Assembly (NCBI GenBank): GCA_019310525.1
Contig: JAFDEE010000028.1
Coordinates: 1-38,690 of the forward strand
Length of the DNA: 38,690 nt
Direction: 5' to 3'
Source: Deltaproteobacteria bacterium
GTDB taxonomy: Bacteria; Desulfobacterota; DSM-4660; Desulfatiglandales; HGW-15
Shown: positions 22,718 through 38,690 of the stretch, piece by piece
Numbering within the stretch: position 1 is the first letter of the stretch
Layout of the letters: each line of letters opens with the position of its first letter
The notes under the pieces: model-generated
Seen by the model: the letters and a program-made list of their open reading frames with translations, nothing else
Database searches by the model: none
What the model was told of the DNA's origin: nothing
Position numbers and translations under genes: made by a program

Positions 22718-22918
22718 ATGGCAAGGACGGAGGAATGCCGGAATTTCCTGGTGGAAGGGAAATGCGATTCCTGGATAATCGCCCGGTTCAAAAACAACGA
22801 ATTTATCACGGGCCGGGACCGCATGGGATTTTCGGATGCCGACATAACGGAGGAGATCTGCCTGAATTGCCCTAATTTCAAAATGAATATCCGCCCCATG
22901 AGGATGAACGATCAGTAA
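22718..22918 (+). CDS. Small four-cysteine protein, unknown function
   Basis: The 66-residue protein begins [19 protein letters not shown] and ends with [19 protein letters not shown], so the four cysteines are arranged C-x8-C ... C-x2-C, as in small zinc- or iron-binding proteins. GGGAGGTG lies at a good distance before ATG 22718, which supports translation. There is no membrane segment. It lies alone between the phosphoesterase and glnS. Its codon use is like that of neighbours. Metal binding is inferred from cysteine spacing only. Confidence 0.7.
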
Positions 22919-23148
22919 GGTATCCGTGTACAGGCGGACAAAAAAAGGGCCCTTATGGCCTTTCGGCGGCCGGTGCGGCCTGTGTGGGGTGCGCACCCCC
23001 CGGGGGCGCTTTTCGCCCCTGGCAAGGGACACTGGGTGTCGGTCAGAGGGGCTTTGAAGGGGAAATCCCCTGGCGACCAACGCCTGTTTCCATGGAACCG
23101 CGGAGGTCTTCAGTGAGGGTTTTAAAGGAAGGAGGACGCAATCTCAAG

Positions 23149-25248
23149 GTGAGCGACAAGAGCCAAGCACATCCACAGAATTTCATCCGCGCTATCGTTG
23201 AAGAAGACCTCGAGAAAGGCACTTGGGGGGGGCGGGTCCATACCCGTTTCCCACCCGAACCCAACGGATATCTCCACATCGGTCACGCCAAGTCCATTTG
23301 CCTGAACTTCGGACTTGCCGAGGATTACGGGGGGCTTTGCAACCTTCGGTTCGATGACACCAACCCCGCCAAGGAAGAGATGGAGTACGTGGAGTCCATC
23401 AAGGAGGACGTCCGTTGGTTGGGCTTTGATTGGGGGGATCGTGAGTACTATGCCTCGGACTACTTCGAGCGGCTCTTTGAGTATGCTTTGCAGCTCATTA
23501 GGAAAGGGAAGGCCTATGTCTGCGATCTGAGCCCCGAACAGATCAGGGAATACCGGGGCACATTGACGGAACCGGGCAGGGAGAGTCCTTACCGGAACCG
23601 GTCCGTGGAGGAAAACCTCGACCTTTTCCAGCGCATGAGGGCGGGGGAATTCCCCGATGGATCCCGCACCCTGAGGGCCAAGATCGACATGGCCTCTCCG
23701 AATCTCAATATGCGGGATCCCGTCATGTACCGCATCCTGCATGCCGAGCACCACAGGACCGGGAGGAAGTGGTGTATCTATCCCACCTATGATTGGACCC
23801 ATGGACAATCGGATTCCATCGAGGGGATTACCCACTCTCTTTGTACCCTCGAGTTCGAGGACCACCGTCCGCTGTACAACTGGTTTCTCGAGGCCCTGGA
23901 GATTTACCATCCCCGGCAGATCGAATTCGCCCGGCTCAACCTCAGCCACACGGTGATGAGCAAGCGGAAGCTTTTGGAGCTGGTAAAAGAGGGCCATGTG
24001 CGGGGATGGGACGATCCAAGGATGCCTACCCTATGCGGCCTCAGGCGCCGGGGGTATACGCCCGAGTCGATTCGGAACTTCTGTGAGCGGATCGGGGTGG
24101 CCAAGCGGGAGAGCGTGGTGGATATCGCCTTCCTGGAGCATTGCCTCCGCGAAGACCTCAACAAGAGGGCCCAACGGGTCATGGCGGTTTTGCGACCCTT
24201 GAAGGTCATTATCGACAATTATCCCGAAGGCCGGGTGGAAGAACTGGAGGCGGTGAACAACCCTGAAGACCCGGGAATGGGAACCCGAAAGGTCCCCTTC
24301 TCCAGGGTCCTTTACATCGAGCGGGAGGATTTCATGGAAGATCCTCCGAAAAAATTCTACCGCCTGGCCCCCGGGCGGGAAGTACGCCTTCGGTATGCCT
24401 ATTTCATCAAGTGTGTCGAGGTTGTGAAAGACGGGGATACCGGCGAGATTCGAGAGATCCATTGTACCTATGACCCTGAGACCCGTGGAGGAAATGCCCC
24501 GGACGGCCGGAAGGTCAAGGCCACCTTGCACTGGGTATCGGCGGAGCATGCCTTGGAGGCGGAAGTCAGGTTGTACGATCACCTTTTCTTGAAGGCCAAT
24601 CCGGGGGAAGAAGAAGGAAAGGATTTCAAGGACGATCTGAATCCCCATTCCCTGGAGGTCCTCCCCCGTTGTTTCCTGGAGCCTAGCCTCAAGGATGCCC
24701 GGCCCGGTATATCTTACCAGTTCGAAAGGTTGGGTTACTTCTGCGTGGATTCCAAGGACTCAACGAGAGAGAAACCCGTCTTTAATCGAACGGTTACCTT
24801 ACGGGACACCTGGGCCAAGATCAGAAAGAGGGGAGCGGAGGCCGCGGGAAAGGAAGTGCCCCCGGAACCATCGGGGAAAGATAAAAAGGCGGGAAAGAAG
24901 GAACCGGCACCCTTAAAGGAAGAGATCACCATAGAGGAATTCTCCCGGATGGATCTCAGGGTGGGAATCATTCGGGAGGCCGAAGAGGTGGAGGGGGCGC
25001 GAAAACTCCTCCGGCTGCAGGTGGATCTCGGTGAAGGCCGCACGCGCCAGATCCTTTCAGGAATCCGGTCGGCCTATCCTGACCCGGGTAGACTGGTGGG
25101 CAAACGGGTCATCGTGGTAGCCAACCTGAAACCCCGGAAGATGAGGTTTGGAATTTCAGAAGGAATGATCCTTTCGGGCGGGGACGGGGACAGGCTCTGC
25201 GTAACCACCTTCGACGGCGATCCCTTGCCGGGGGACCCGGTGACCTAG
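23149..25248 (+). CDS. glnS: Glutaminyl-tRNA synthetase with fused C-terminal tRNA-binding domain
   Basis: This protein of about 699 residues charges tRNA-Gln with glutamine. The class I catalytic core has [15 protein letters not shown] (about residues 35-49, HIGH motif) and VMSKRKL (about 268, KMSKS-type), with GlnRS-specific [10 protein letters not shown] and [17 protein letters not shown]. The anticodon-binding beta-barrels extend to about residue 555. A Lys/Pro-rich linker (about 560-590) leads into an extra domain at about 592-699 ([54 protein letters not shown]), the OB-fold tRNA-binding domain seen at the end of many MetRS proteins. GTG 23149 is chosen from alignment of the N-terminus; GTG 23113 (CGGAGG upstream) is the alternative. 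A strong terminator follows. Confidence 0.95.
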
Positions 25249-25300
25249 AAAATCATCGAACAGCGGCTATCTTTTCATCCCCAACAGGATAGGTTGCCAA

Positions 25301-25336
25301 ACGGGGCGCACCTTAAGATGCGCCCCGTTCCTTTTG
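25301..25336 (+). terminator. Terminator of glnS
   Basis: ACGGGGCGCA (25301-25310) and TGCGCCCCGT (25319-25328) form a perfect 10-bp stem with an 8-base loop, followed by TCCTTTT. Confidence 0.88.
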
Positions 25337-25446
25337 GTTCTCCATTATGAGGAGACCAAGGGAGCTGCCCAGGGTTCCCGGAAGGAATGCCTGTTCCCTG
25401 CCGTGTTGTCCGGAAGGCGGGGCTGGAGGGAATGGGGATTTTTTAC

Positions 25447-25555
25447 TTGACAATGATAATGACCTATTATATCAGTCAATTAAAAGGTCATACCATTCGA
25501 TATTCAACTCGATAACAGGGCGATGCCATCCATAAGTAAGTGATTTCATGGATGG
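25447..25555 (+). promoter_or_regulatory. Promoter and candidate operators of the GntR regulator
   Basis: TTGACA (25447-25452) and TATATC (25468-25473, spacer 15) are the best promoter elements. Two inverted repeats surround them: ATGACCT (25459-25465) with AGGTCAT (25485-25491), which straddles the -10, and CCATCCAT (25526-25533) with ATGGATGG (25548-25555) in the leader. The first is well placed for autorepression by the GntR protein; this is inference. Confidence 0.45.
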
Positions 25556-25570
25556 GAATGAGGTAGTAAC

Positions 25571-26314
25571 ATGCATAATGAGGTCTTGTTTTCACCTTAC
25601 ACACCGACCCGGGCCTTCGAAGAAGTGGCCGAGCAGATCAGAGAGGTCATCCTGGCCGGAAAGCTTTCGCCCGGGGACCGTCTTCCCTCGGAACGATCTC
25701 TTGCAGAACAGTTCCAGGTAGGCCGCCTGACCATCCGGGAGGCCCTTCGCACACTCGAAATCACAGGATTTGTCGAAATCAGAAAAGGGAGCGGTGGCGG
25801 GGCCTTCGTGGCCTCCGGCAATCTGGAAGCCGTGGCGTCCATCATCAAGGACAACCTCATTTTGGAAGGGCTCACCAGCGATCAGATCACCGAGGCCCGA
25901 CTGGCCCTTGAATGCGCGGCCGTGGAGGCCGCCGTCCGCCATGCCACTGAAGAGGACCTGGAGCGCATCGCCCGGCATATCGAAGAGGCTGAAAAAACCC
26001 TGAAGGCCCCGGAGAAGGAGGGCGAAAGCGTTCCGCGAATGATCAGGTTCCATCAACTCATCGCCCGGGCTTCCCATAACCTGCCCTTCATCCTGTTCAT
26101 CCATGCCATTCTGGAATGGGCTCGAAGCAGGCCCATCCTGGCCTCGTGGGTGCCTTCCGAAAATGAAAGAAAGTTTGTTTTAAACTCCTACAAACGGATA
26201 TTCCGGGCTGTCAGGAACCGGGATGCGGACTCGGCCCGGCGTTTCATGAAGGAACACGTCTTGGCCATGGGAGAATTACTCCGGGAACCCCGCGAAAAGG
26301 CCGAGGACGCTTAA
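25571..26314 (+). CDS. FadR-subfamily GntR transcriptional regulator
   Basis: This 247-residue DNA-binding regulator has an N-terminal GntR winged helix (about residues 14-80: EEVAEQIREVILAGKLSPGDRLPSE, LAEQFQVGRLTIREALRTLE, GFVEIRKGSGGGAFV) and a C-terminal all-helical FCD ligand domain (about 95-235) with metal/ligand residues in ITEARLALE, RFHQLIARASHN and FMKEHVLAMGELL. FCD members sense small organic acids, often the substrate of the neighbouring pathway. GAGGT lies about six bases before the ATG. It is the first gene of the rightward cluster ending at 38652, about 210 bp before the ferredoxin gene, and is the likely local regulator of uptake and reduction genes. Confidence 0.94.
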   Translation: MHNEVLFSPYTPTRAFEEVAEQIREVILAGKLSPGDRLPSERSLAEQFQVGRLTIREALRTLEITGFVEIRKGSGGGAFVASGNLEAVASIIKDNLILEGLTSDQITEARLALECAAVEAAVRHATEEDLERIARHIEEAEKTLKAPEKEGESVPRMIRFHQLIARASHNLPFILFIHAILEWARSRPILASWVPSENERKFVLNSYKRIFRAVRNRDADSARRFMKEHVLAMGELLREPREKAEDA

Positions 26315-26458
26315 TTTCCCAATCTGGGAATGGGAGAAAATCCCTCGCCTTAAGGCGAAGACTTTAGTTGGATCGTTTTTTTGCGTAGGGTTCAACAAGG
26401 ATTCAAGGGGTTCAGGGTTCGAGTGGGAAATCGGGATTTAAGGAAAGATGATTTTCTC

Positions 26459-26499
26459 TTGACCCCTTGGCCTCTAAAGCTATCGGCTTCAGTCGATAG
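26459..26499 (+). promoter_or_regulatory. Candidate promoter/operator for the flavoprotein-transporter-reductase cluster
   Basis: TTGACC (26459-26464), 16 bases, TATCGG (26481-26486). The inverted repeat CTATCG (26480-26485) / CGATAG (26494-26499) overlaps the -10 and is placed as an operator. Upstream, a perfect palindrome TCGCCTTAAGGCGA (26345-26358) and a T-run at 26374-26381 may end the regulator transcript. The -10 match is weak. Confidence 0.4.
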
Positions 26500-26527
26500 T
26501 GGTTTAATTTCAAAGGGAGATCAGGCC

Positions 26528-26767
26528 ATGGCATTTTGTCACATATACTTCAATGAGAGTGTATGCGACGGTTGTGGGGTATGCGTGGAAGTCTGCATGA
26601 GCGACGTCTTCGCCCCCAACCCCGAGAAGGGGAAACCCCCGCTTGTTCGTTATCCGGAGGAGTGTTGGTTTTGTGGCTGTTGCATTACGGACTGTCCCCA
26701 TGGAGATGAAGGCGCCATCAAGATCATCACCCCATTCCCCATGCGGGGCTCTTTTAAAAGATCATGA
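26528..26767 (+). CDS. Two-cluster ferredoxin, AprB-like (Fd1)
   Basis: This 79-residue soluble electron carrier has two [4Fe-4S] motifs: C13-x2-C16-x2-C19-x3-C23 and C46-x2-C49-x2-C52-x3-C56-P, plus an additional C51. The spacing and the segment PEECWFCGCC resemble the N-terminal ferredoxin domain of adenylylsulfate reductase beta subunits, but the long AprB tail is missing. GGGAGA precedes ATG 26528. It lies 53 bp upstream of an AprA-like flavoprotein, so the two probably form a functional pair. The second ferredoxin at 30680 is a clear paralogue, sharing the segment KGKPPLV and PEECW. Confidence 0.92.
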   Translation: MAFCHIYFNESVCDGCGVCVEVCMSDVFAPNPEKGKPPLVRYPEECWFCGCCITDCPHGDEGAIKIITPFPMRGSFKRS

Positions 26768-26820
26768 GTGGGGGGAGGGTTGCCCTTCCATGTAAGAGGG
26801 GCCTGTGAGGAGGAAGCACA

Positions 26821-28596
26821 ATGTATAGACTTCGTATCGTCCCCATCGAGACGGACGTTCTGATCATCGGGGGAGGCCTCGCCGGGTGCATGGCGGCCAT
26901 TCGGGCCGCGGATCAGGGAGGGATCGCCGTGACCCTGGTGGACAAATCCAACACACGGAGAAGCGGGTGCGCAGCATCGGGAATCGATCACGTGTGGGCC
27001 TATATCCCGCCCATTCACGAGAAGATGGGATATACGATCGACGACATGGCGGAGGATCACCGGGTAGGAACGGCCTATGGATTCTTCCGGAGGGATCTTT
27101 TCGACCTTGTGGCGGGCACCATGTACGAGCGGGTGCTGGACCTGGAGCGCTTCGGAATCAGGTTCAGGTATGAGGACAGCAAGGTCCCGGGAGGGTTCCG
27201 GATCGTTCCCCAGTTCCACAGTGTTCCGACATCCTTCAACTTCGACGGCGGTCCATTGAAGCCCGTTCTCACCAGGGAGGCCAAAAAACGAGGGGTGAGA
27301 ATCATCAACCGCGTGCAGATGACCGACCTGCTCACCAATGACGGGCGGATTGCCGGGGCCGTGGGCGTGAACGTGCGAAACGCGGACATCTACTTTTTCA
27401 GGGCCAAGGCGGTGGTGCTTTCAAGCGGCCGTTCCAACCGCTTGAGCCGGAATATCAACGGGTGCGAGTTTAATACCCGCATGCCGGGACCTTTCAGTGG
27501 GGACGGAACCTCCATGGCTGTCCGTGCCGGGCTTCCCATAATCAATATCGAATTCTTGAGCAATATCCTCGGGCTCGGGCCCTGCGGCTTCTACAATCCC
27601 AATTACGGGGACCCGAGGAACACCGTTCAGCCCGCTGCCCGGATCGTGGACTGGAAGGGCAACGTTATCGTACCCAGAACCCAAGGTTACGACTGGGGAA
27701 ACCTTGGAAAGGAAAAGTGGAGTGAAGCGGTAAGAGAGGCATGGCTGGAGGACCGGAAGATGTGGAGACAGGGAAGGGCGGCCCTGGTGAAACGCCTCAA
27801 AGGGGGTGAAGGCCCTTTTTATCTGGATTTCAGTGAGGGCACGGACGAGGAGATCGCCTACATCGAGTGGTCCATTTCCCATGAGGGTAAGGGAACCCAG
27901 TTCCTCAGGTATTTCAAGGGGGAGGAGGGACTGGATTTAAAGAAGAACAGCCAGGAATACGTGGGACTCTGGCCCAGGGAGATTTCGGGGACGGCCGCAA
28001 AGGGAATCTGGGTGGACAAGGATCTCGAAACGGAGATCCGGAATCTCTTTGCCGCCGGGGACGAGGTCGGGGGGCTTCCCTGGCAGGCCTCTCCGGGCGC
28101 TTTTACACAGGGTTGGCATGCGGGGGGCGTGGCCGCCGGGAGGGCCGCTGCCCGGAAACACCTTCTTCCGGTCAAGGATGACTTGGTGGAGGCCCGCAGG
28201 CATATGTGCGAGGAGATTCTGAATCGAAAAGAGGGCTTCCACTGGCGGGAGGTGGAGATCGGGGTGCAGAACCTCATGGACTTTTACTGCGGGGACATCC
28301 GGAGCGAAGGGTTGCTGCTGAGGGGGATCGAGAGGCTCGAGGATGCCAAGGCCGCTCCCCTTAAAGCAGAAAATCCCCATGAACTGGGGAGATGCCTGGA
28401 CGTAAAATCCATAATCGACAACGCGGAACTGGTCCTTCGCTCATCTCTTGAAAGGAGGGAGAGCCGTCCCGGACCACTTGGATTTGTTCGGGCGGACTAT
28501 CCCGAGCAAGACGACAAAAACTGGCTGGCCTTTCTATCCATCCGCAAGAGAGAGGACGGGACCTTCGAGTTCAAGAGATTGCCCGTTGATCATTGA
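26821..28596 (+). CDS. AprA/fumarate-reductase-type flavoprotein 1
   Basis: This 591-residue FAD-dependent oxidoreductase is related to the alpha subunit of adenylylsulfate reductase and to fumarate reductase flavoproteins. FAD-binding Rossmann motif TDVLIIGGGLAGCMAA lies at about residues 11-26, TLVDKSNTRRSG at about 39-50, the second FAD segment FFRAKAVVLSSG at about 195 and the C-terminal FAAGDEVGG near 415. There is no signal peptide. It is not a true APS reductase: the long ferredoxin partner is absent and the AprA substrate-site segments (for example the RFIPVRFKD region) are not recognisable. GAGGAGG precedes the ATG. It is cotranscribed with Fd1 and a second homologue. Its substrate is unknown; an electron-bifurcating or transfer role is possible. 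Confidence 0.9.
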   Translation: MYRLRIVPIETDVLIIGGGLAGCMAAIRAADQGGIAVTLVDKSNTRRSGCAASGIDHVWAYIPPIHEKMGYTIDDMAEDHRVGTAYGFFRRDLFDLVAGTMYERVLDLERFGIRFRYEDSKVPGGFRIVPQFHSVPTSFNFDGGPLKPVLTREAKKRGVRIINRVQMTDLLTNDGRIAGAVGVNVRNADIYFFRAKAVVLSSGRSNRLSRNINGCEFNTRMPGPFSGDGTSMAVRAGLPIINIEFLSNILGLGPCGFYNPNYGDPRNTVQPAARIVDWKGNVIVPRTQGYDWGNLGKEKWSEAVREAWLEDRKMWRQGRAALVKRLKGGEGPFYLDFSEGTDEEIAYIEWSISHEGKGTQFLRYFKGEEGLDLKKNSQEYVGLWPREISGTAAKGIWVDKDLETEIRNLFAAGDEVGGLPWQASPGAFTQGWHAGGVAAGRAAARKHLLPVKDDLVEARRHMCEEILNRKEGFHWREVEIGVQNLMDFYCGDIRSEGLLLRGIERLEDAKAAPLKAENPHELGRCLDVKSIIDNAELVLRSSLERRESRPGPLGFVRADYPEQDDKNWLAFLSIRKREDGTFEFKRLPVDH

Positions 28597-28658
28597 TTCT
28601 CCCACAGCGGGAGGGCAGGAATCCGAATGATTCCTGGATGTGGGGAAGGGAAAATTCC

Positions 28659-30599
28659 ATGAACTGGAGACAATACGTAAAGAAATACGGATTGATTGAG
28701 TGGCCGTATCCCGTAAGGTATGGAGAAGAGAGGGAGATCGAGGCCGACGTGCTGGTGTTGGGCGGTGGTATTGCAGGATGCTGGGCGGCCATCAGCGCCG
28801 CACGAAAAGGCCTGAAGGTCGTATTGGTCGAAAAGGGGGCAACGGTAAAGAGTGGTTCAGGGGGGTCGGGTTGCGATCATTGGCTCAATACCCCCCACCC
28901 GGGCACCGATGTGACGGCCGAAGAGATCGTGGGCTGGGAACTGGAAATGACGGAGGGGTATTGCAACGCTCTTTCGCGCTACATTGCGGCCCGGGAGAGC
29001 TACGAGACCCTTTTGGAAATGGAACAGATGGGAGGCGTCATCCGGGACCTCAAGGATGAATTCAAGGGGGCCCCTTTCCGGGACGAAAAAACAAAATTTC
29101 TCTTCGCCTATGATTACAAATCTCGGATTCACTTCCGGGTCAGGGGAAGCACCTTTAAGGTGGCGCTTCATAAGGAATGCAAGCGTTTGGGGGTGAAAAT
29201 TCTGGACCGGGTGATGGCCACGGGCCTCCTGACCGAAGGAGGCAGGAACGGGGCCCGGGTGGTGGGGGCCACGGGACTTCATTGCAGGACCGGGGAGTTT
29301 TTCATCTTCAAGGCAAGGGCGGTGGTCAACGGCCTTTCCCGCCACCAGAGGAACTGGTGTTTTTCAACAGAGATCCGGGGAAACGCCAATTTTCGTCCCA
29401 CCCAGATCGTGGGGGACGGTCATGCCATGAGCTGGCGGGCCGGAGCGGAATTCACCATGATGGAGAAGTCCCTGCCCACCTCCTTTGCCAGCGGCAATGT
29501 CTTTCAACCCTATAGTCATGGAAACGGGATCAATACCTGGGTACCCTGCACCATGGTGGATGCCAACGGAAAAGAGATCCCCTGGGTGGACCGGGATGGA
29601 CGCATCCTTAAAACCGTGGAAGAGCGCTGCATGCCCGCGCCCGGGCAAAGGTTCATGGGGGAGAGAACACAGGGTTATACCCACAAGCGCCCGGAATTGA
29701 TTCCGGACCTGGAGGAGCGCATAAGGAAGGGTGAATATACCTTGCCGCTTTACGCCGACCTGACCGGGATGCCGGAGCACGAGCGGAGGGTGATCTGGGG
29801 GCTCATGGTGGGTGAGGAGGGCAAGACCCGGGTTCCAGTGTATATTTATTACAATGAAGCAGGGTTTGATCCTGCCAGGGACCTGCTTCAGAGCTACATG
29901 TTCCTCGGCGGAGACCCCATGAGGGGGAGTGTTCGGCCTCAGGACCGAACGGGAGGAGAGATTGGAGACGCCGGGGGGCTGGTGACCGATTGGAACCTGA
30001 TGACCAACTTGGAAGGGTATTTTGCGGCGGGAGACGCCTTGTTCGCCGCCAACTACCACTACCACGCCGCCGCTACGGGCCGGTATGCGGGGCGAAAGGC
30101 GGCGGAATACGCCGAGAAGACCAAGTTCTCCCCCATCGACCGCAAACAGGTGGCACGGGAGAGGCGATGGGTATACCGTCCCCTGGAAAACCGCGATGAA
30201 CTCGAATGGAAGGAGTTGAACGCAGCGGCTTGCCGGATCATGCAGAACTACTGCGGTGAGTACAAGAACGAGGAACTGCTGAAGCTCGCTTTGATCTCTC
30301 TTCGTGAACTTCAAGAACAGGATGCGCCCCGGGTCTGTGTGGACAATCCCCACAAGTTGATGAGAACCCTTGAGGTATATAATATCCTGACTTGTAACGA
30401 GATGATCGTCCATGCCTCAATGGCGAGAAAGGCAAGCAGTCAGATCCTGGGTTTCACCCGGCTGGACTACCCGGAGCTTGATCCTCCTGAATGGAAGAAG
30501 TGGATCCTGCTTCGAAACGAGGAAGGCAGCATCAAGACCAGGGATTTGCCCTTGGATTTTTGGAAGCCGTTGAAGGAAAACTACGAAAAGAACAGGTGA
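28659..30599 (+). CDS. AprA/fumarate-reductase-type flavoprotein 2
   Basis: This second AprA-like flavoprotein, about 646 residues, is longer than and clearly related to flavoprotein 1. The N-terminus MNWRQYVKKYGLIEWPYPV precedes the FAD motif ADVLVLGGGIAGCWAAISAA (about residues 29-48), with VLVEKGATVKSGSGGSGCDHW, FKARAVVNGLSRHQRNW and the C-terminal YFAAGDALFAANYHYHAAATGRYAG. No secretion signal. ATG 28659 is supported by GGAAGGG at 28643-28649. An in-frame TTG upstream overlaps the end of flavoprotein 1 but has no ribosome site. It is followed 80 bp later by the second ferredoxin. The order Fd1-flavo1-flavo2-Fd2 suggests two pairs facing each other or one larger complex. Confidence 0.9.
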   Translation: MNWRQYVKKYGLIEWPYPVRYGEEREIEADVLVLGGGIAGCWAAISAARKGLKVVLVEKGATVKSGSGGSGCDHWLNTPHPGTDVTAEEIVGWELEMTEGYCNALSRYIAARESYETLLEMEQMGGVIRDLKDEFKGAPFRDEKTKFLFAYDYKSRIHFRVRGSTFKVALHKECKRLGVKILDRVMATGLLTEGGRNGARVVGATGLHCRTGEFFIFKARAVVNGLSRHQRNWCFSTEIRGNANFRPTQIVGDGHAMSWRAGAEFTMMEKSLPTSFASGNVFQPYSHGNGINTWVPCTMVDANGKEIPWVDRDGRILKTVEERCMPAPGQRFMGERTQGYTHKRPELIPDLEERIRKGEYTLPLYADLTGMPEHERRVIWGLMVGEEGKTRVPVYIYYNEAGFDPARDLLQSYMFLGGDPMRGSVRPQDRTGGEIGDAGGLVTDWNLMTNLEGYFAAGDALFAANYHYHAAATGRYAGRKAAEYAEKTKFSPIDRKQVARERRWVYRPLENRDELEWKELNAAACRIMQNYCGEYKNEELLKLALISLRELQEQDAPRVCVDNPHKLMRTLEVYNILTCNEMIVHASMARKASSQILGFTRLDYPELDPPEWKKWILLRNEEGSIKTRDLPLDFWKPLKENYEKNR

Positions 30600-30679
30600 G
30601 TGACGGGACGTAGAAGAAGAACGAGATTCTATTATGACGATCATATGACCCTAAAAAACAGCCTGAAAAAGGGATTCCA

Positions 30680-30982
30680 ATGAGTGAGGAAAAAATCTAT
30701 GCGTTTCCAAACGGCTGTACGCCCGGGAACCCGGTTACATTCGATCCGGAAATATGCAACGGGTGCAACCTGTGTGTCGACGCCTGCCAGGTGGATGTGT
30801 TGATTCCAAATCCCGTGAAGGGAAAACCACCGCTGGTCCTTTTTCCTGAAGAGTGCTGGTACGCAGGGTGTTGCGAAGGGATATGCCCGAGGCCGGGAGC
30901 AATCCAGATTCACTTGCCCCTACCCCAGAGAGTCCGCTGGAAACGGAAAGACACGGGGGAGCATTTCCGCGTCTCCCGGTGA
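30680..30982 (+). CDS. Ferredoxin-like protein with altered second cluster (Fd2)
   Basis: This 100-residue paralogue of Fd1 has a 13-residue N-terminal extension and a basic C-terminal tail. The first motif is normal (C26-x2-C29-x2-C32-x3-C36). In the second, C59-W-Y-A62-G-C64-C65-x3-C69-P, the second ligand position of the canonical motif is Ala62, leaving C59, C64, C65 and C69. Either C64 replaces the missing ligand or this site holds a [3Fe-4S] cluster. AAAGGGA precedes the ATG. It lies between flavoprotein 2 and the transporter genes, probably serving flavoprotein 2. Confidence 0.9.
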   Translation: MSEEKIYAFPNGCTPGNPVTFDPEICNGCNLCVDACQVDVLIPNPVKGKPPLVLFPEECWYAGCCEGICPRPGAIQIHLPLPQRVRWKRKDTGEHFRVSR

Positions 30983-31095
30983 TTTCTTCCTGGAGTTTCC
31001 TCCAGGCGTAAGGAGGAAGGCCTGTATCAGGTCTTTGGAAAGGTCATGGTGCCCATGGCCCTGAAGATTCACCCACATTAAAGGAGGAGGGAATC

Positions 31096-32691
31096 ATGAG
31101 GGGACGAAAAGACGGATTTTGGTTCGGGGTTGTTTGTATCCTTGTTTGTTTCATCCTGTTTCCCCCGGCAGCCCACGCCGGGCCGAAATATGGGGGAACC
31201 CTGCGTATCGCGGTGAGGATCCCTCAGTACAATCGCCTTGATGGGCTTCAACTCACCACGGAGGGCATGGTGCCCAGCGCGACCATGATCTATGAAGGTT
31301 TATACGTGCCGGGCAGAAAAGGGGGTGCTTTCCCTGTACCGGCCCTTGCCACCGGGTACGAAACCAAGGACAACAAGGTCTGGATTTTTCACTTGAGAAA
31401 AGGGGTGAAGTTCCATAACGGCCGGGAGATGACGGCGGAGGACGTCAAGGCCAACTTTGACTGGCGGATCAAGACCCCGAAGGGCTGGAAACCGGTCAAA
31501 TACCGCCAGCAACTCAGCTGCCTTGAGAAGGTCGAAGTTCTCGACAGGTATACCGTGAAGGTCACCCTGTCAAGGCCCTTTTCACCCTTGATCGGTGTGT
31601 TCACCTGGGCCATGCGTGCAATCGTACCGCCGGAGGAAGTAGAGAAATGGGGAAAAGAGTTCACCTTGCATCCATGCGGGACCGGCCCTTACAAAATCCA
31701 GGAGATCAAGCCGAAAGAAAAGGTGGTTCTCGTCAGGAATGAAGAATACTGGGGGCCCAAGCCTTACATCGACAGGGTGGAGTATTATTTCATGCGATCC
31801 AACGACGCGCGCATGGTGGCCCTTGAAAAGGGTGAGGTGGATTTCGCCATGCTCTATGACCAGAGTCGGCCGGTGCTTAAAAAGAATCCAAAAATCCAGT
31901 GGGAGCCCGTCATCCAGAGCATGGCGATTCACAAACTCTATTTCAACATGCGGCGCTGGCCCATGAGTGACGTTCGGTTCCGGAAGGCCGTGTGGATGGG
32001 AGCGGATTGGAAAAATATCGTGATCAACGCCTTTCCTTTCAAGTCCGGAAAGCCTCTCCGCTCTCTTCTCGACTACACACCCTACTTCAGCCCCGAGGCC
32101 GAAAAATACATGCTCTCTTATAACCCGAAAGAGGCGAAGAGACTGATCAAGGAGGTGGAAAAGGATGCAGGAAAAAAGATTCCTCCCATCTATTACCTTG
32201 ATTCCAGCGCAACGACCATGAAAAGCATAGGGGAAATGGCCAAGATGCAATTGGCCCAGGTCGGAGTACCCCTTAACCTGCAGTTGATGTCCCATGCCAT
32301 CTGGTTCGACAAGCTGTTGCGGGATCCAAAGATGGAATGGGATATGGGAGGATACGGTCAGGGATTCAGCCGATCGCCGACGGTGGGGCTTGGGACGTTT
32401 CGTTCCAACGCAGGGGAGGCCCCGGACGGTAAATCCATCGGGGGGTATGCCAACCCGAAATTTGACGCCCTTGTGACAAAGGCCGAGAGGAGCATGAGCC
32501 TGGAAGAACGAAAAAAGATCTGGACTGAAATGGAGAAGATCCTCTTAAAAGACGCAGTGTGTGTCCCACTATTCCCCTTTCACGTGATCCATGCATGGCA
32601 CAAGGACCGGGTCAAGGGAGTCATCAATACGGATACCGGGAGCGTGAACGTGACCACTTGTTGGGGTGCCAATATGTGGCTTGAGGAATAA
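31096..32691 (+). CDS. ABC transporter substrate-binding protein, oligopeptide/dipeptide type (SBP family 5)
   Basis: This 531-residue periplasmic receptor delivers substrate to the permease. It has a signal peptide (basic MRGRKDG, hydrophobic core, cleavage likely after AHA near residue 28) and the family 5 fold: GGTLRIAVR at the mature start, FHLRKGVKFHNGREMTAEDVKANFD, GTGPYKIQEIKPKEKVVLVRNEEYWG and YFNMRRWPMSDVRFRKAVWMG. Family members bind peptides, nickel chelates, opines, glycans or other solutes, so the name does not fix the substrate. AAAGGAGGAGG stands before ATG 31096. A small hairpin (30989-31006) lies just upstream and a GC-rich stem-loop just downstream. Confidence 0.95.
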   Translation: MRGRKDGFWFGVVCILVCFILFPPAAHAGPKYGGTLRIAVRIPQYNRLDGLQLTTEGMVPSATMIYEGLYVPGRKGGAFPVPALATGYETKDNKVWIFHLRKGVKFHNGREMTAEDVKANFDWRIKTPKGWKPVKYRQQLSCLEKVEVLDRYTVKVTLSRPFSPLIGVFTWAMRAIVPPEEVEKWGKEFTLHPCGTGPYKIQEIKPKEKVVLVRNEEYWGPKPYIDRVEYYFMRSNDARMVALEKGEVDFAMLYDQSRPVLKKNPKIQWEPVIQSMAIHKLYFNMRRWPMSDVRFRKAVWMGADWKNIVINAFPFKSGKPLRSLLDYTPYFSPEAEKYMLSYNPKEAKRLIKEVEKDAGKKIPPIYYLDSSATTMKSIGEMAKMQLAQVGVPLNLQLMSHAIWFDKLLRDPKMEWDMGGYGQGFSRSPTVGLGTFRSNAGEAPDGKSIGGYANPKFDALVTKAERSMSLEERKKIWTEMEKILLKDAVCVPLFPFHVIHAWHKDRVKGVINTDTGSVNVTTCWGANMWLEE

Positions 32692-32703
32692 CTTTTTGCC
32701 CCG

Positions 32704-32732
32704 GGGGGAGGATGATCTCATCCTCCCCCTTT
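32704..32732 (+). terminator. Intercistronic stem-loop after the binding-protein gene
   Basis: GGGGGAGGAT (32704-32713) and ATCCTCCCCC (32720-32729) form a perfect 10-bp stem with a 6-base loop and a short TTT. Such loops after binding-protein genes commonly stabilise the upstream message or partly terminate, giving more receptor than permease; here that is inference. Confidence 0.65.
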
Positions 32733-32795
32733 AGGAATGGAAAAGGGACCACATAAGTCAGCAACGCAGAACCTCAAGACAGGACGAAAAAGAGC

Positions 32796-33737
32796 ATGAC
32801 GAGGTATATTCTCGGCCGGGTTCTTCAGATGATTCCGGTGCTTTTTGGGGTCATTCTGGCGGTTTTTTCCCTTACCCATATTCTTCCCGGGGATCCCGTT
32901 CTCTTGATGCTCGATGTTCAGTATACCCGGGAAGAATACGATGAAATGAAGTCCTACCTGGGCCTGGACAAACCCATTCCCGTCCAATTCGTGCAGTATC
33001 TGAAGGGGGTCCTTTCCGGCGATCTGGGAAGGTCGATTCATTCCGAGGAACCGGTAGCCAGGATGGTCCTTCGACGCTTTCCTGCGACCTTCATTCTCTC
33101 GATCTCGGCCCTCTTGATTTCCGCGGTGATCGCTATCCCTATAGGGCTCTTTTCCGCCCTCCGCAGGAACACCAAGGTTGATTACGCCTCAATGGTGGGG
33201 GCACAGCTGGGCATATCCATGCCCATCTTCTGGCTGGGCCTCATGATGATTCTCCTCTTCAGCCTAAAACTGGACCTTTTGCCTCCCGGGGGCAGGGGGG
33301 AGCCGCCGGACCTGGCCCATCTCATCCTGCCGGCCCTTTGCCTGTCCACCCCCTTCATGGCCATGACGGCGAGGCTGACCCGCTCCTGCATGCTGGAGGT
33401 GCTGCGGGAGAATTACATCGTATCGGCCCGGTCAAGGGGATTCGGGGAGAGCCGGATCATTCTGAAACATGCCTTGAGAAACGCCATGATTCCCGTGGTG
33501 ACGAACCTGGGGCTCCAGTTGAGCCGAATGCTGGGCGGAGCGCTGGTCACCGAGGTCATCTTTCGGTGGCCGGGAATCGGGGGGCTTGCTTATGATTCCA
33601 TCATGGAACGGGATTATCCCGTGGTCATGGGGGTCGTGCTTCTCGGGGCCATGGTATTCATTCTCATAAATCTCTTGGTGGATATTTCCTATTCTTTCCT
33701 GGACCCCAGAATTCGTTACGAAAAGGTGCGTTCCTAG
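32796..33737 (+). CDS. ABC transporter permease, DppB/OppB type
   Basis: This 313-residue inner-membrane permease has the usual six membrane helices. Signatures are MTRYILGRVLQMIPVLFGV, SLTHILPGDP, the long periplasmic YLGLDKPIPVQFVQYLKGVLSGDLGRS and the cytoplasmic coupling loop YIVSARSRGFGESRIILKHALRNAMIPVVT (EAA-type) that contacts the ATPase. It starts 104 bp after the binding-protein gene, beyond the stem-loop; the ribosome site is weak (AGGA, about 11 bases). It partners the DppC-type permease that follows. An inverted repeat, AACCGGGA/TCCCGGTT (33744-33774), lies in the 70-bp gap after it. Confidence 0.95.
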   Translation: MTRYILGRVLQMIPVLFGVILAVFSLTHILPGDPVLLMLDVQYTREEYDEMKSYLGLDKPIPVQFVQYLKGVLSGDLGRSIHSEEPVARMVLRRFPATFILSISALLISAVIAIPIGLFSALRRNTKVDYASMVGAQLGISMPIFWLGLMMILLFSLKLDLLPPGGRGEPPDLAHLILPALCLSTPFMAMTARLTRSCMLEVLRENYIVSARSRGFGESRIILKHALRNAMIPVVTNLGLQLSRMLGGALVTEVIFRWPGIGGLAYDSIMERDYPVVMGVVLLGAMVFILINLLVDISYSFLDPRIRYEKVRS

Positions 33738-33807
33738 GTGATGAACCGGGAAGAACAGGTGTCAAGTCCCGGTTAAGGAAGGGGAAAAGAAACACGGAGA
33801 TGTTGTC

Positions 33808-34638
33808 TTGAAGGAGATCCTTCGAAGATTCAGGAGACATCGGTTGGCCGTTGTGGGTGCCGGTGTGGTGTCTGTTCTCATTTTGGTGGCCGTCTTTGCT
33901 CCATTACTGGCACCCCAGGATCCCGATTACATGGACCTGGGAAGCATTCTGAATCCACCCTCCCGGCATCACTTTTTGGGAACGGATCACCTGGGCCGCG
34001 ATCTCCTGAGCAGGTTGATTTATGGAACCCGCGTGTCCTTGATCGTTGGCCTTGGATCCGTGGGATTCGCAATCGTGGTGGGGGGGCTCTGCGGTCTTTT
34101 GGCGGGTTATTTCGGGGGCCTTATCGATGTTGTGATCATGCGGCTCCTGGATATTATCTGGGCCTTCCCGCCCATTCTCCTGGCCCTGGCCTTTGTGGCG
34201 GTCCGGGGGGCCAGCCTCACGGGTGTTATTTTGGCCATCGGTCTGGTCGGGATACCCGGATACGCCCGAATTGTGAGATCCTCTGTGTTGAGCGTGAAGG
34301 AGAAAGATTTCGTCCTGGCGGCCAGGGCCTCGGGGATCAGCGATATGAGCATCCTCTTGACCCATGTGCTTCCGAACGTGGCGGCCCCCCTGATCGTTGT
34401 GGCCAGCCTGGGGGCCGCAACCGCGATCATGCTTGAGTCCATCTTGAGTTTCCTGGGGTTGGGTCTTCAACCTCCAGCAAGCTCCTGGGGGTTGATGATC
34501 AGTGAGGGCCAGAAGTACCTCAGGACTCATCCATACTATTCTCTTTTCCCCGGGATGGCGATCATGATCCTTGTTTTCGCCTTGAATGTCCTGGGAGACG
34601 GGTTACGGGACGCCTGGGATCCAAAATTGAAGAACTGA
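33808..34638 (+). CDS. ABC transporter permease, DppC/OppC type
   Basis: This 276-residue second permease subunit has its N-terminal helix at about residues 12-32, the family segment HHFLGTDHLGRDLLSRLIYGTRVSL, and the coupling loop FVLAARASGISDMSILLTHVLPN, ending in LNVLGDGLRDAWDPKLK. The only in-frame start near the conserved N-terminus is TTG 33808, with CGGAG eight bases upstream; the nearby ATG at 33800 is out of frame and stops at once. A TTG start may lower its translation. It forms the membrane heterodimer with the preceding permease. Confidence 0.94.
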   Translation: MKEILRRFRRHRLAVVGAGVVSVLILVAVFAPLLAPQDPDYMDLGSILNPPSRHHFLGTDHLGRDLLSRLIYGTRVSLIVGLGSVGFAIVVGGLCGLLAGYFGGLIDVVIMRLLDIIWAFPPILLALAFVAVRGASLTGVILAIGLVGIPGYARIVRSSVLSVKEKDFVLAARASGISDMSILLTHVLPNVAAPLIVVASLGAATAIMLESILSFLGLGLQPPASSWGLMISEGQKYLRTHPYYSLFPGMAIMILVFALNVLGDGLRDAWDPKLKN

Positions 34639-34655
34639 TCCGAAGGATTGGGGTC

Positions 34656-35621
34656 ATGGGAGCGGATATCCTGGAGGCGAGAAATCTTAAGACCTTTTTT
34701 TCCCTTCCCGAAGGAGTCCTGCGGGCGGTCGACGGGGTGTCTTTCCGTATCCGTGAAGGTGAGAGCCTGGGCCTGGTCGGCGAGTCCGGATGCGGTAAGT
34801 CGGTCACGGCTCTGAGCCTCATGCGACTGGTCCCTGACCCGCCCGGAAAGATCCTGGAAGGAGAGATCTTTTTCAAGGGATCGGATCTCATGAAACTCCC
34901 GGAAAGAGAGATGCGGAAGATCCGGGGAAGCCGAATTTCCATGGTCTTCCAGGAGCCCGCTACCTCCATGAACCCTTCCTATACCATTGGGAACCAAATG
35001 AAGGAGGTCATTCGTTTCCACCAGGGGGGAAAGGGATCCCGGGTTGAGGAAAAGGCCCTGGAGGTCCTCCGTGATGTTCAGATCCCGGATCCAAGGCGGG
35101 TTTTGTCCCAGTATCCCCACGAGTTGTCGGGTGGAATGCTTCAAAGGGTCATGATCGCCATGGCCCTTTCCTGTGAACCCGTCCTGATGATCTGTGACGA
35201 GCCTACCACCGCCCTGGACGTCTCCACTCAGGCCCAGATTATTCAACTCCTGGGGGACCTGAGGGAGCGCCGGAGAATGTCTCTTCTCTTCATCACCCAC
35301 GACCTGGGGGTCTTGTCTTGGGTTTGTACGTCCGCCGCGGTCATGTATGCGGGAAAGATAGTGGAGCACGGGGCCATTAACCAGGTGTTGAAGGATCCGA
35401 TCCATCCCTATACCCGGGCCCTGATCGGGGCCACCCCCAGGATGGACAGAGATATGGACAGGCTGAAGGTCATTTCGGGGACGGTTCCAAATCTTGTTGA
35501 CTTGCCACCGGGATGCACTTTTTGGCCTCGATGCCCCCTGTCGAGAAAGGCGTGTCGGGAGGAGGCACCGGTATTGAATGACAGGGGAGACGGCCACCAT
35601 GCCGCCTGCCATTTTTGCTAG
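34656..35621 (+). CDS. ABC transporter ATP-binding protein, DppD/OppD type
   Basis: This 321-residue ATPase subunit has Walker A GESGCGKSV (about residues 42-50), Q-loop FQEPATSMNP, signature LSGGMLQRV, Walker B VLMICDEPTTALD and the switch His in FITHDLG. A C-terminal oligopeptide-transporter extension carries four cysteines (PPGCTFWPRCPLSRKAC...AACHFC), a site that holds an Fe-S cluster in some DppD/F structures. The gene starts 17 bp after the permease stop and is followed 16 bp later by the second ATPase. Confidence 0.96.
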   Translation: MGADILEARNLKTFFSLPEGVLRAVDGVSFRIREGESLGLVGESGCGKSVTALSLMRLVPDPPGKILEGEIFFKGSDLMKLPEREMRKIRGSRISMVFQEPATSMNPSYTIGNQMKEVIRFHQGGKGSRVEEKALEVLRDVQIPDPRRVLSQYPHELSGGMLQRVMIAMALSCEPVLMICDEPTTALDVSTQAQIIQLLGDLRERRRMSLLFITHDLGVLSWVCTSAAVMYAGKIVEHGAINQVLKDPIHPYTRALIGATPRMDRDMDRLKVISGTVPNLVDLPPGCTFWPRCPLSRKACREEAPVLNDRGDGHHAACHFC

Positions 35622-35637
35622 GAGGATGCAGTAGCTG

Positions 35638-36609
35638 ATGGGTGCGGTGGATCCCCGGCCCCTGTTGGAAGTCCGGGAACTCAAAAAGTATTTTTACATC
35701 AAGAAGGGTTTTAAGCGGCCCAAAATCCTGAAGGCGGTGGACGGGATCAGTCTCCGGCTGGATGAGGGGGAGGTCCTCGGAGTGGTGGGTGAGAGTGGAT
35801 GCGGGAAGAGTACGCTGGGCCGAACTGTTCTCCGTCTCCTTCCTCCCACTTCGGGGACGATTTTGTTCGAGGGCACCCCCATACTGGAACTAAAGGGAAG
35901 GGATCTCAGGAGACTGCGGAGCAGGATGCAGATCATCTTTCAAGATCCTTACTCTTCCCTCAATCCCCGGTTGACAGTGCGCCGAATGCTGGATCAGATC
36001 CTTCGTTCCCACGGGGTGATGGACCCGGAAGAGCGCCGTGTCCGGAGTCTTGAGACCCTTGTGAGGGTAGGGCTTCAACCCATCCATCTGGACAGATATC
36101 CTCACGAGTTCTCAGGCGGCCAGAGGCAGCGGATCGCCATCGCCAGGGCCATGATCTTGAACCCGGACTTCATCGTCGCGGATGAACCATCGAGCGCCCT
36201 GGATATGTCGATCCAGGCCCAGATCCTGAACCTTATGAAGGCGCTGCGGGAGGAGTATCATATCTCTTACCTTTTCATCACCCATAATCTGGCCGCCGCA
36301 CGTTTTCTGTGCGATCGGATTGCAGTGATGTATCTGGGGAAGATAGTCGAGGAAGCCGGGCACGACGAGTTTTACGGCAACCCCCGGCATCCATACACAA
36401 AGGCGCTTCTCTCCCTCTGCCCGGTTCCGGATCCTGATCAGGTGGCCCGTGCCGTTCCCCTGAGGGGAGAGGTGCCCTCCCCCATTGATCCTCCCGGAGG
36501 GTGTCGTTTTCACCCACGTTGCCCCGAGGCGATGGCTGTTTGCAGGGAAGAAGAACCCCGCCTAAAAGAGTTGACAGCAGGCCACCTGGTTGCTTGCCAC
36601 AAAGCATGA
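35638..36609 (+). CDS. ABC transporter ATP-binding protein, DppF/OppF type
   Basis: This 323-residue partner ATPase has Walker A GESGCGKSTLG, Q-loop FQDPYSSLNPR, signature FSGGQRQRIAIARAM, Walker B FIVADEPSSALD and switch His in FITHNLAA, followed by the oligopeptide-type C-terminal Cys motif (PPGGCRFHPRCPEAMAVC...ACHKA). AGGAGG lies about 12 bases before ATG 35638 and overlaps the end of the previous gene. It completes a five-gene importer. The reductase gene starts 78 bp downstream with no terminator in between, so it is likely cotranscribed. Confidence 0.96.
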   Translation: MGAVDPRPLLEVRELKKYFYIKKGFKRPKILKAVDGISLRLDEGEVLGVVGESGCGKSTLGRTVLRLLPPTSGTILFEGTPILELKGRDLRRLRSRMQIIFQDPYSSLNPRLTVRRMLDQILRSHGVMDPEERRVRSLETLVRVGLQPIHLDRYPHEFSGGQRQRIAIARAMILNPDFIVADEPSSALDMSIQAQILNLMKALREEYHISYLFITHNLAAARFLCDRIAVMYLGKIVEEAGHDEFYGNPRHPYTKALLSLCPVPDPDQVARAVPLRGEVPSPIDPPGGCRFHPRCPEAMAVCREEEPRLKELTAGHLVACHKA

Positions 36610-36687
36610 TCAGGGGGGAGCCGTGGCATAGGGGATGGATTGGACAAAGGACCGCGGGACGGCTGGATGGCCGAGGAGGAGAACGAA

Positions 36688-37938
36688 GTGAAAAAACTGT
36701 CACTTGCTGAATGGGAAGCGAAATACATTGTAGAAAAGCTCGAACAGTTTGACCAAAAACATACCATGTTCGAACGTCCGGGATGGGATCCTGACATCCA
36801 TGGCGCGGTCGAGAGTTGGGCTATTCGGGGAACGGTGAGCCGGAAACCGGGCTACCGGCTGGAAGAATGGGCGCTCCACTGGGCAAGCCGGCGTGGAACC
36901 CTGATGAATTTTTTCAATACCTCAAAGCCTGCCAGTGGAAAAGAAGCAAAGCTGTTGGCCAAGGGTTTGGCCGGCCTTGAGACCACCCTTCTCGCCACCG
37001 CCTCCCAGGGACCTCCCCCTGGGGCGGAGCTCACGAGTCAGGATCCGGAGGAACTTTCCAGGACGATCAAGAAAGCGGCGCTCTGGTTCGGCGCCGATAT
37101 GGTGGGTATCTGCCGTCTGGATCGGCGTTTCCTTTACTCCCATGTTTACGATGCCATGCCTTATATGGGCAAGGGGTCGGATGAGCTGGTAAGGGGCGAT
37201 TCCGTGCCCCAGGAGATCCCTGAGTCCTATCAGTGGGCCGTTGTGATGGGGTTTGAACAGGACTACGATCTCATATCCCGTTACCCGACCTTCTGGTCCA
37301 ATGCCGCTTCCAGCATGGGATACAGCCGCCTTACAATTACCAATCATTATCTCTCCACCTTTATTCGAAATCTGGGATTCCAGGCCATTGATTGCGCCAT
37401 CAACGACGTGGCCCTCTCTATCCCCTTGGCAATGCTGGCCGGTCTTGGAGACCTCGGGCGAAACGGGTTGCTGATCACTCCGGCATACGGGCCGAGGGTC
37501 AGAATCAGCCAGGTGCTTACGGACATGCCCCTCGTGGCTGATCAACCCATCGATTTCGGGGTGACCGAATTTTGCGAGGCCTGCGAGATCTGCGCCGAGA
37601 AATGCCCGTCCCAGTCCATCCTGTACGGAGATCGTACGGCGGAACCCAATAATATATCCAACGCTGCCGGGGCCTTGAAGTGGCCCATCAATGCCGAGAC
37701 ATGCCGAATGTACTGGGGCAAGATCAATCAGGGATGCACGGCATGTATGGCCGCGTGCCCTTTCAACAAGTTAGACACTCCTTTTCACAGGATGGTGCGG
37801 TGGTTTGTGGACCACGCCCGGTGGGGTGATCGCTTCTACGTTTGGATGGATAAGATAATGGGCTATGGCAGGCCACGGCCGGTCGATCATTTTTGGGATG
37901 AATGGAAGCCCGGCCGGAGGAAGGGCCTTTTCCGTTGA
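36688..37938 (+). CDS. Cytoplasmic reductive-dehalogenase-like corrinoid/Fe-S protein
   Basis: This protein of about 416 residues belongs to the RdhA family, whose members use a cob(I)amide and two Fe-S clusters to reduce, often dehalogenate, organic substrates. The diagnostic core is present: GLGDLGRNGLLITPAYGPRVRI, TDMPLVADQPIDFGVTEFC, then C296-x2-C299-x2-C302-x3-C306-P and C339-x10-C350-x2-C353-x3-C357-P. A Tyr in MGYSR (Y212) is a candidate proton donor. There is no Tat signal, unlike respiratory RdhA, and no small RdhB anchor gene next to it, so it is probably soluble in the cytoplasm. It is also much shorter than the roughly 700-residue catabolic type with a fused reductase. GTG 36688 is preferred because GAGGAGGAG precedes it. 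Electrons may come from the ferredoxins of this cluster. Confidence 0.9.
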   Translation: MKKLSLAEWEAKYIVEKLEQFDQKHTMFERPGWDPDIHGAVESWAIRGTVSRKPGYRLEEWALHWASRRGTLMNFFNTSKPASGKEAKLLAKGLAGLETTLLATASQGPPPGAELTSQDPEELSRTIKKAALWFGADMVGICRLDRRFLYSHVYDAMPYMGKGSDELVRGDSVPQEIPESYQWAVVMGFEQDYDLISRYPTFWSNAASSMGYSRLTITNHYLSTFIRNLGFQAIDCAINDVALSIPLAMLAGLGDLGRNGLLITPAYGPRVRISQVLTDMPLVADQPIDFGVTEFCEACEICAEKCPSQSILYGDRTAEPNNISNAAGALKWPINAETCRMYWGKINQGCTACMAACPFNKLDTPFHRMVRWFVDHARWGDRFYVWMDKIMGYGRPRPVDHFWDEWKPGRRKGLFR

Positions 37939-38043
37939 CGGAGAGGAAAGGGGCGGGCCAAGCTGGGGGCGGCCGGGTAAGCCACATGCCAAGCGGGGGT
38001 GAATACTTGCCGGCCGTGAGGGGACGTTTTGGAAAGGAATTTC

Positions 38044-38652
38044 ATGGGGATGGGAGACAAGGAGGATCGGCGATTCGGTCCCTATGGTTTTGATGAATTT
38101 CTCCGGGTTGCAGAGGAGTTTCACGGGGCGGTCGCCCCGGGCCTGATCCTGGGGGGGTACATGGTGGAAATGGCCAAGAGCCAGATCCCGGATGGGGTCC
38201 TCTATGACGCCATCTCGGAGACGGCTTCCTGTCTTCCCGATGCTATCCAGCTTCTCACCCCCTGCACCATCGGGAATGGATGGTTGAAGGTCATCGATCT
38301 GGGGCTCTATGCCCTCTCTCTCTTTGACAAGTACACGGGAGAAGGGATCCGTGTGTCCCTTGATCAGGGGAAGCTCGCTCCTTACGGGGAAATCAGGGCC
38401 TGGTATTTCAAGCTCAAGGAAAAGCGGGACCAAGATCTCCGCTTGATCGTGGAGGAGATCCGAAAGGCGGGTGAGAAAATACTGGCTGTGAGGAAGATCC
38501 GTGTAAGCCCTGGAATACTGGGAAAGACCGGCAAGGGGGAGATCGGCGTATGCCCGGCCTGCCAGGAAGGGTATCCGGTCAAGCATGGAGCCACCTGCCT
38601 CTCCTGCCAGGGTGGAAGCCCATATGTGCCCCGGGGACGAGACCCTGCCTGA
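38044..38652 (+). CDS. FmdE-like protein with degenerate N-terminal site and C-terminal zinc ribbon
   Basis: This 202-residue protein is related to the FmdE family, named after a subunit of formylmethanofuran dehydrogenase but found widely with unknown roles. Recognisable parts are SETASCLPDAIQLLTPCTIGNGWLKVIDLGLYALSLFD (about residues 59-96) and a C-terminal four-Cys ribbon (CPACQEGYPVKHGATCLSC). The normal start motif, FHGHxCPG, reads FHGAVAPG (H27, A29, A31), so two usual metal ligands are absent. GGAAAGGAA precedes ATG 38044. It is the last gene of the cluster and lies 105 bp after the reductase gene. Its role there, for example in cofactor or metal handling, is a guess. Confidence 0.85.
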   Translation: MGMGDKEDRRFGPYGFDEFLRVAEEFHGAVAPGLILGGYMVEMAKSQIPDGVLYDAISETASCLPDAIQLLTPCTIGNGWLKVIDLGLYALSLFDKYTGEGIRVSLDQGKLAPYGEIRAWYFKLKEKRDQDLRLIVEEIRKAGEKILAVRKIRVSPGILGKTGKGEIGVCPACQEGYPVKHGATCLSCQGGSPYVPRGRDPA

Positions 38653-38690
38653 CAGATATCCTGAGAAACTTCTTATAGACAACGCGGCCC

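Follow-up and report, generated by a model that had tools for sequence, protein, structure and literature searches.

The rdhA gene and its cluster

The window, meaning the whole stretch of DNA that was analyzed, is an entire contig of 38,690 bp (G000:C28) from a Desulfatiglandales genome of 3.78 Mb that is 97% complete. From position 25571 to the contig end, twelve genes run in the same direction with gaps of 16-113 bp, in the order GntR, Fd1, FlvA, FlvB, Fd2, substrate-binding protein (SBP), OppB, OppC, OppD, OppF, RdhA, and FmdE-like protein. The gene for RdhA, a reductive dehalogenase family protein, is the penultimate one visible. A terminator scan placed a strong terminator-like hairpin at 25300-25329, upstream of the GntR gene, and the cluster is probably co-transcribed.

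25571-26314, plus strand: FadR-type GntR regulator, with which the cluster probably begins (matches of the NanR/LldR/PdhR type)
26528-26767, plus strand: Fd1, AprB-like ferredoxin (HgcB-type ferredoxin matches)
26821-28596, plus strand: FlvA, AprA/FrdA-like flavoprotein (PRK08275 257 bits, under the cut-off; nearest structure 8a8o, 150 bits)
28659-30599, plus strand: FlvB, FAD flavoprotein of the AprA/FrdA superfamily (PF00890/PF02910; PRK08275 204 bits against a cut-off of 587)
30680-30982, plus strand: Fd2, AprB-like ferredoxin of 100 aa (Fer4/Fer4_7)
31096-32691, plus strand: family-5 substrate-binding protein of the importer (PF00496, 253 bits)
32796-33737, plus strand: OppB/DppB/NikB-type permease (NF045470, 344 bits)
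33808-34638, plus strand: OppC/DppC/NikC-type permease (NF045476, 306 bits)
34656-35621, plus strand: OppD/DppD-type ABC ATPase (NF008246, 345 bits)
35638-36609, plus strand: OppF/DppF-type ABC ATPase, ending 78 bp upstream of rdhA (NF008453, 397 bits, slightly below the cut-off of 408)
36688-37938, plus strand: RdhA-family reductase of 416 aa, Tat-less (TIGR02486; alignments with PceA and 33 relatives; check of start and leader)
38029-38652, plus strand: FmdE-like protein with an FmdE domain and a treble-clef zinc finger, 90 bp after rdhA (PF02663, 115.6 bits; PF23475, 55.4 bits)

Neither FlvA nor FlvB passes a specific model. The nearest solved structure to FlvA, 8a8o, is the alpha subunit of PAPS reductase, and the nearest to FlvB are the PAPS reductase alpha subunit and APS reductase. 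With the alpha subunit of APS/PAPS reductase and with FrdA they have in common the FAD_binding_2 fold and a partner gene for an AprB-like ferredoxin, but they fall far under the AprA, FrdA, and PRK08275 cut-offs, and FlvB is the equivalog of neither AprA nor FrdA. An open-access literature search for an AprA-like flavoprotein cassette found nothing. The Fd1 start was placed at ATG 26528, which follows GGGAG, while the longest open reading frame begins at 26381. The N-terminus of the SBP looks like a secretion signal.

The FmdE-like gene beside rdhA was not seen at other RdhA loci, and none of the genes identified in the window is halogen-specific. An Rfam scan of 20000-38690 gave no match, hence no cobalamin riboswitch at the gathering threshold. 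A glutaminyl-tRNA-synthetase-like protein with an apparent C-terminal tRNA-binding (EMAP/Trbp111-like) domain is encoded at 22984-25248, as judged by reading the sequence only.

Catalytic core and N-terminus of the window RdhA

The rdhA reading frame starts at GTG 36688, with AGGAGG just upstream (GCCGAGGAGGAGAACGAA-GTG), and stops at 37938; an alternative start at TTG 36640 would add 16 residues. Its 416-aa product contains the core RDH and Fe-S domains only. It passes the model for the reductive dehalogenase catalytic subunit (TIGR02486, 243.2 bits, E 5.7e-72, cut-off 160.35). The best solved structure is PceA of Sulfurospirillum multivorans (4uqu, 207 bits), and further solved relatives are a second tetrachloroethene dehalogenase (8q4h) and NpRdhA, with QueG far lower in the ranking. 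In a family alignment of 34 sequences, the window RdhA and 33 relatives, both Fe-S motifs are complete, the first as C296-x2-C299-x2-C302-x3-C306P and the second as C339...C350-x2-C353-x3-C357P. The RdhA core and the two Fe-S motifs claimed in the earlier note are thus confirmed.

Both the PceA alignment and the family alignment equate Y212, N239, and R272 of the window RdhA with Y246, N272, and R305 of PceA, and the catalytic Tyr that the earlier note had proposed comparing with PceA is accordingly Y212 in sequence alignment. Tyr246, Asn272, and Arg305 are the residues around the cobalt in PceA, and Trp376 has also been described (PMC5500849); W343 of the window RdhA aligns with the latter. 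The Tyr/Asn/Arg set is nearly invariant across the 34 sequences, and the Fe-S ligands are conserved too. The window protein is probably a cobamide-binding enzyme. Its substrate pocket is not that of PceA, since PceA Tyr382, in the upper cavity, aligns with Gly349. An AlphaFold2 model built from two-sequence input only (the window protein and L018) reached a pLDDT of 35 and a pTM of 0.27. Scanning a viral contig collection with the 34-sequence alignment returned no relatives.

QueG, the epoxyqueuosine reductase, has the same fold and Fe-S domain, and the window protein scores 54.5 bits with the QueG model (TIGR00276), far under its cut-off of 200. QueG shares the catalytic Tyr and has its own DYH motif (PMC4646009); this motif is absent from the window RdhA, which reads GYS at its Tyr. 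In the tree QueG sits on a very long separate branch and the window RdhA is clearly outside it, and the source genome has its own QueG gene on contig C24, coding for 310 aa. By score, motif, tree, and separate gene, QueG identity was ruled out, and the probability that the protein is QueG or a QueG paralogue is negligible. The earlier note had also observed that the length matches neither QueG nor the fused enzymes, and it stands well apart from both: 416 aa compared with 310 aa for the genome's QueG, 1071-1098 aa for fused catabolic RdhAs in a plasmid collection (ORF calls), and 704 aa for NpRdhA (4ras). Elsewhere in the genome, a 253-aa RdhA/QueG-like protein (G000:C40 39893-40369; L058 9891-10652) forms a very long branch distinct from both the C24 QueG and the RdhAs.

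No choice of start can yield a Tat leader, because the in-frame stretch upstream has neither an RR motif nor a hydrophobic stretch. The preceding in-frame stop (36607-36609) is the stop codon of OppF, and the full possible N-terminal extension is about 26 residues (SGGSRGIGDGLDKGPRDGWMAEEENE). Reading this whole stretch ruled out a missed Tat leader, as the earlier note had maintained for every in-frame start. As a positive control, the same RR scan found SRRDFGKL and SRRDFMKA in RdhAs of Sulfurospirillum and Dehalococcoides. The window RdhA appears to start where mature PceA starts, as expected for a leaderless RdhA; its residue 14 aligns, as a weak match, with residue 24 of the PceA chain.

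Among open reading frames of 35-160 aa ending beyond 34500 on both strands, none has a predicted TM segment, the visible sequence downstream being the 752 bp to the contig end. Within this visible sequence, the earlier note was right that no RdhB-like small membrane protein lies on either side. Of the two features that define a respiratory RdhA, a Tat (RRxFxK) leader and an adjacent rdhB, neither is present in the visible sequence. A hybrid RdhA with an N-terminal TM region was likewise ruled out, as the window protein has no TM segment. The predicted location is the cytoplasm, and the best reading of the window RdhA is a non-respiratory cytoplasmic reductase.

It is very improbable that the protein is instead a respiratory RdhA exported by hitch-hiking without a leader of its own and anchored by an RdhB encoded elsewhere. 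Linkage to an importer would be pointless if the enzyme worked outside, none of the RdhAs of the genome has a Tat leader, and the visible neighborhood has no RdhB-like open reading frame. On the other side, its clade and PceA are in the same half of the RdhA tree, joining that clade with Tat-bearing RdhAs was not rejected (AU test, p 0.095), and one Smkt1-type rdhA has an adjacent rdhB (PMC3939436).

Relatives in the genome, the order, and the literature

The source genome encodes 11 RdhAs above the family cut-off, none of them (0/11) with a Tat leader. Those on contigs C37, C43, and C91 have three N-terminal TM helices each and the others are soluble. An order-level search found RdhA relatives in 37 of 85 genomes, with 18 matches in G071 and 21 in G081. 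The copies per genome number 11-21, and a Tat leader is missing from nearly all the relatives that were sampled in the order and phylum, these genome-wide statistics resting on searches and on sampled stretches of up to 20 kb. L018, from a Desulfatiglandales MAG (the same contig as G081:C38), is the closest relative with a name, at 54% identity in its best segment. The source genome also encodes dsrA, suggesting that the organism probably respires sulfur compounds, and CobS, consistent with cobamide assembly or salvage. On contig C26 (L049 7787-9049 and 9744-11243), two rdhA genes of different clades lie about 700 bp apart downstream of LIV-type ABC transporter genes, resembling the two neighboring cytoplasmic rdhA genes described from SAG2 (PMC6129605).

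We placed the window RdhA in a maximum-likelihood tree of 75 core domains, whose deeper branching order is tentative because only three or four reference RdhAs come from outside the phylum. It belongs to a 13-member clade with support of 100/100, made up of Desulfatiglandales and relatives, including paralogues from G071 and G081 and one member from another family of the phylum (G220). Joining this clade with the fused catabolic group (NpRdhA, BhbA, Nitratireductor, Aminobacter) was rejected by the AU test (p 1.4e-55). Membership of the NpRdhA/BhbA group was ruled out on this test, and the window protein also lacks the extra N-terminal half and the fused reductase domain. The RdhA/QueG phylogeny that the earlier note had called for therefore gives an own clade outside QueG. 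Its proposal of a distinct cytoplasmic subgroup stands in part: the clade is its own and is neither QueG nor NpRdhA/BhbA, but it is not special, as lacking a Tat leader is the rule here and has already been published.

Short RdhAs of about 400 aa, unfused and Tat-less, are encoded on four other contigs of the genome: C7 (L051 9679-10914), C35 (L052 8049-9251), C54 (L053 20-1210), and C22 (L055 9716-10900). All four branch within the group sister to the fused catabolic enzymes of the NpRdhA/BhbA type (support 100/100) and are possibly unfused relatives of that lineage.

Tat-less RdhAs have been published from Desulfatiglans-related single cells (Jochum 2018, PMC6129605) and from the marine Dehalococcoidia DEH-C11 (Wasmund 2016, PMC4959651). 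By description these resemble the window RdhA in carrying two Fe-S motifs, in lacking both RdhB and a Tat leader, and in being predicted to be cytoplasmic, and the hosts of Jochum 2018 belong to the same order as the window organism. The features of the RdhAs published from Desulfatiglans relatives (no Tat, no RdhB, two Fe-S motifs, a Desulfatiglandales host) are all found in the window RdhA. An operon of importer and flavoprotein/ferredoxin genes like that at the window is not known to have been described for them. In the Smkt1 rdhA cluster from subseafloor metagenomes, 0 of 12 had a Tat signal (Kawai 2014, PMC3939436). Smkt1, from marine sediment, is again similar by description, with an RDH motif, two Fe-S motifs, and no Tat leader, but is known only from contigs of 1.5-1.7 kb without operon context. 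Hybrid RdhAs with N-terminal TM helices (Atashgahi 2019, PMC6797604) also lack Tat and RdhB and occur in Desulfatiglans-type hosts, and the source genome has three such genes; the window RdhA differs in having no TM helix and in belonging to another clade. Since Tat-less and TM-hybrid RdhAs are published (PMC6129605, PMC6797604, PMC4959651, PMC3939436), the leaderless kind of RdhA is already known, and the window protein is a well-placed further member.

PceA shares with the window RdhA the core domain, the equivalents of Y246/N272/R305 and W376, and the same broad half of the tree, but it is Tat-exported and anchored by PceB. A relative on a Sulfurospirillum plasmid is about 38% identical to the window RdhA in the core. 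NpRdhA and BhbA are leaderless and presumed cytoplasmic, and their plasmid-borne members adjoin importer genes (TRAP/TTT transporter). Unlike the window RdhA, they are about 700-1100 aa long, have an additional N-terminal half and in many cases a reductase domain, and fall in a different clade.

Importer linkage and the proposed reaction

The order OppB-OppC-OppD-OppF-RdhA recurs in G072 (G072:C644, L070) at 62-74% identity, and in L066 a 53% relative of the window SBP is encoded upstream of the rdhA of a clade member. FlvB-Fd2-RdhA recurs in G071:C415 (L061) at 51/45/56% identity, behind a TAXI-TRAP importer and with the Fd2 relative directly upstream of rdhA. In a sample of 70 loci whose RdhAs are nearly all Tat-less, genes for uptake transporters made up 77 of 704 RdhA neighbors and 6 of 337 control genes (Fisher p 1.5e-8, with genes of one operon not independent). 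Counted by locus, they were present at 31 of the 70 and in 3 of 19 control stretches (p 0.02). Aldehyde:ferredoxin oxidoreductase (AOR) and one GntR family were more frequent near RdhAs by locus, not significantly so (p 0.22 and 0.17). Clade members L059, L060, L062, and L067 have no importer nearby, some being on short contigs.

FlvB copies with an RdhA within about 7 kb numbered 4 where 0.5 were expected (p 0.002), some G081 contigs being of estimated extent. In most cases no RdhA accompanies the FlvB-Fd cassette, which has TAXI-TRAP, Opp, LIV, or other importers and GntR genes as its neighbors. It is for this reason best seen as an import-plus-oxidoreductase cassette of its own that is joined to RdhA at some loci, and FlvA/FlvB with their ferredoxins may have their own job and not feed RdhA.

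Two clade members have neighbors that hint at aromatic substrates. In L069/L205 (G071:C279), the RdhA has 64% identity with the window protein, and its gene is found with those for a ThDP enzyme resembling benzoylformate decarboxylase, a HisC-type aminotransferase, AOR, TauABC-type proteins, and GntR. This gene set suggests that an aromatic amino acid is processed by an Ehrlich-type route. The second, L065, has AOR and a UbiD-type decarboxylase by its RdhA.

The operon context is the most informative addition to the earlier note, giving a concrete hypothesis for one subgroup, import followed by cytosolic reduction, together with candidate electron donors. The SBP5-OppBCDF importer would bring an organic substrate into the cell. 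There the cytosolic RdhA, loaded with a cobamide, would reductively remove a leaving group from it; the group is most likely a halide and the substrate a natural organohalogen, possibly an aromatic one. Downstream cytosolic enzymes would use the product. The halide is put first because of the intact Tyr/Asn/Arg set and the precedent of the family. Importers of this family take up compounds as varied as peptides, nickel, and opines, so the substrate is not constrained by the identity of the importer. Electrons would most likely come from a low-potential ferredoxin, plausibly Fd1 or Fd2 fed by FlvA/FlvB. A ferredoxin donor is plausible and the feeding by FlvA/FlvB a guess. Ferredoxin partners have been reported for truncated catabolic RdhA forms, and an in vitro attempt to reconstitute NpRdhA with cognate ferredoxin partners was unsuccessful (PMC10463259). 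The reaction, the substrate class, and the donor are all predicted from sequence. Taken as a whole, this explanation, a cytoplasmic RdhA that is the reductive step of a catabolic import operon with dehalogenation the most likely reaction, stands in our judgment at about even. Within it, the gene product is a leaderless two-[4Fe-4S] protein shown to belong to the RdhA family and predicted to be a corrinoid reductase.

The same cytoplasmic corrinoid reductase might instead cut a non-halogen bond (e.g. C-O, C-S, or C-N) of the imported compound. Such chemistry exists in the family, QueG being an epoxide reductase (PMC4646009). The 11-21 RdhA copies per genome and the diversity of the importers suggest a chemistry that goes beyond organohalide respiration, and the pocket residue Tyr382 of PceA is not kept. 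However, the PceA Tyr/Asn/Arg set is intact and no operon gene points to a particular non-halogen reaction, and we regard this alternative as unlikely. We found nothing that favors the non-halogenated substrate suggested in the earlier note, the residues around the cobalt being those of known dehalogenases and the DYH motif of QueG being absent.

An electron sink or detoxification role, with ferredoxin or cofactor reoxidation ('facilitated fermentation') and the organohalide as acceptor and not carbon source, has been proposed for Tat-less RdhAs (PMC4959651, PMC6129605). The flavoprotein/ferredoxin pairs of the operon could couple substrate oxidation to RdhA in this way. The high-affinity importer and the catabolic enzymes at related loci fit carbon use at least equally, though, and dsrA indicates that the organism has another electron sink. 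We consider this role quite unlikely for the window RdhA.

It is possible, if doubtful, that the import-and-reduce reading of the window extends to Desulfatiglandales RdhAs at large. They would then be cytosolic modules, with as many as about 20 leaderless RdhAs in a genome. Many would have an importer to themselves (Opp, LIV, TRAP, TAXI, Tau), at the window together with a dedicated AprAB-like flavoprotein/ferredoxin donor pair, and the target of each would be a different natural organohalogen or another group in the organic matter of sediments. Counts of rdhA in sediments should not be read as organohalide respiration.

FlvB-Fd2 cassettes, often with FlvA-Fd1, were seen in Desulfatiglandales (L195, L196, L197, L200, L201, L203, L204, and L211) at up to 81% identity.
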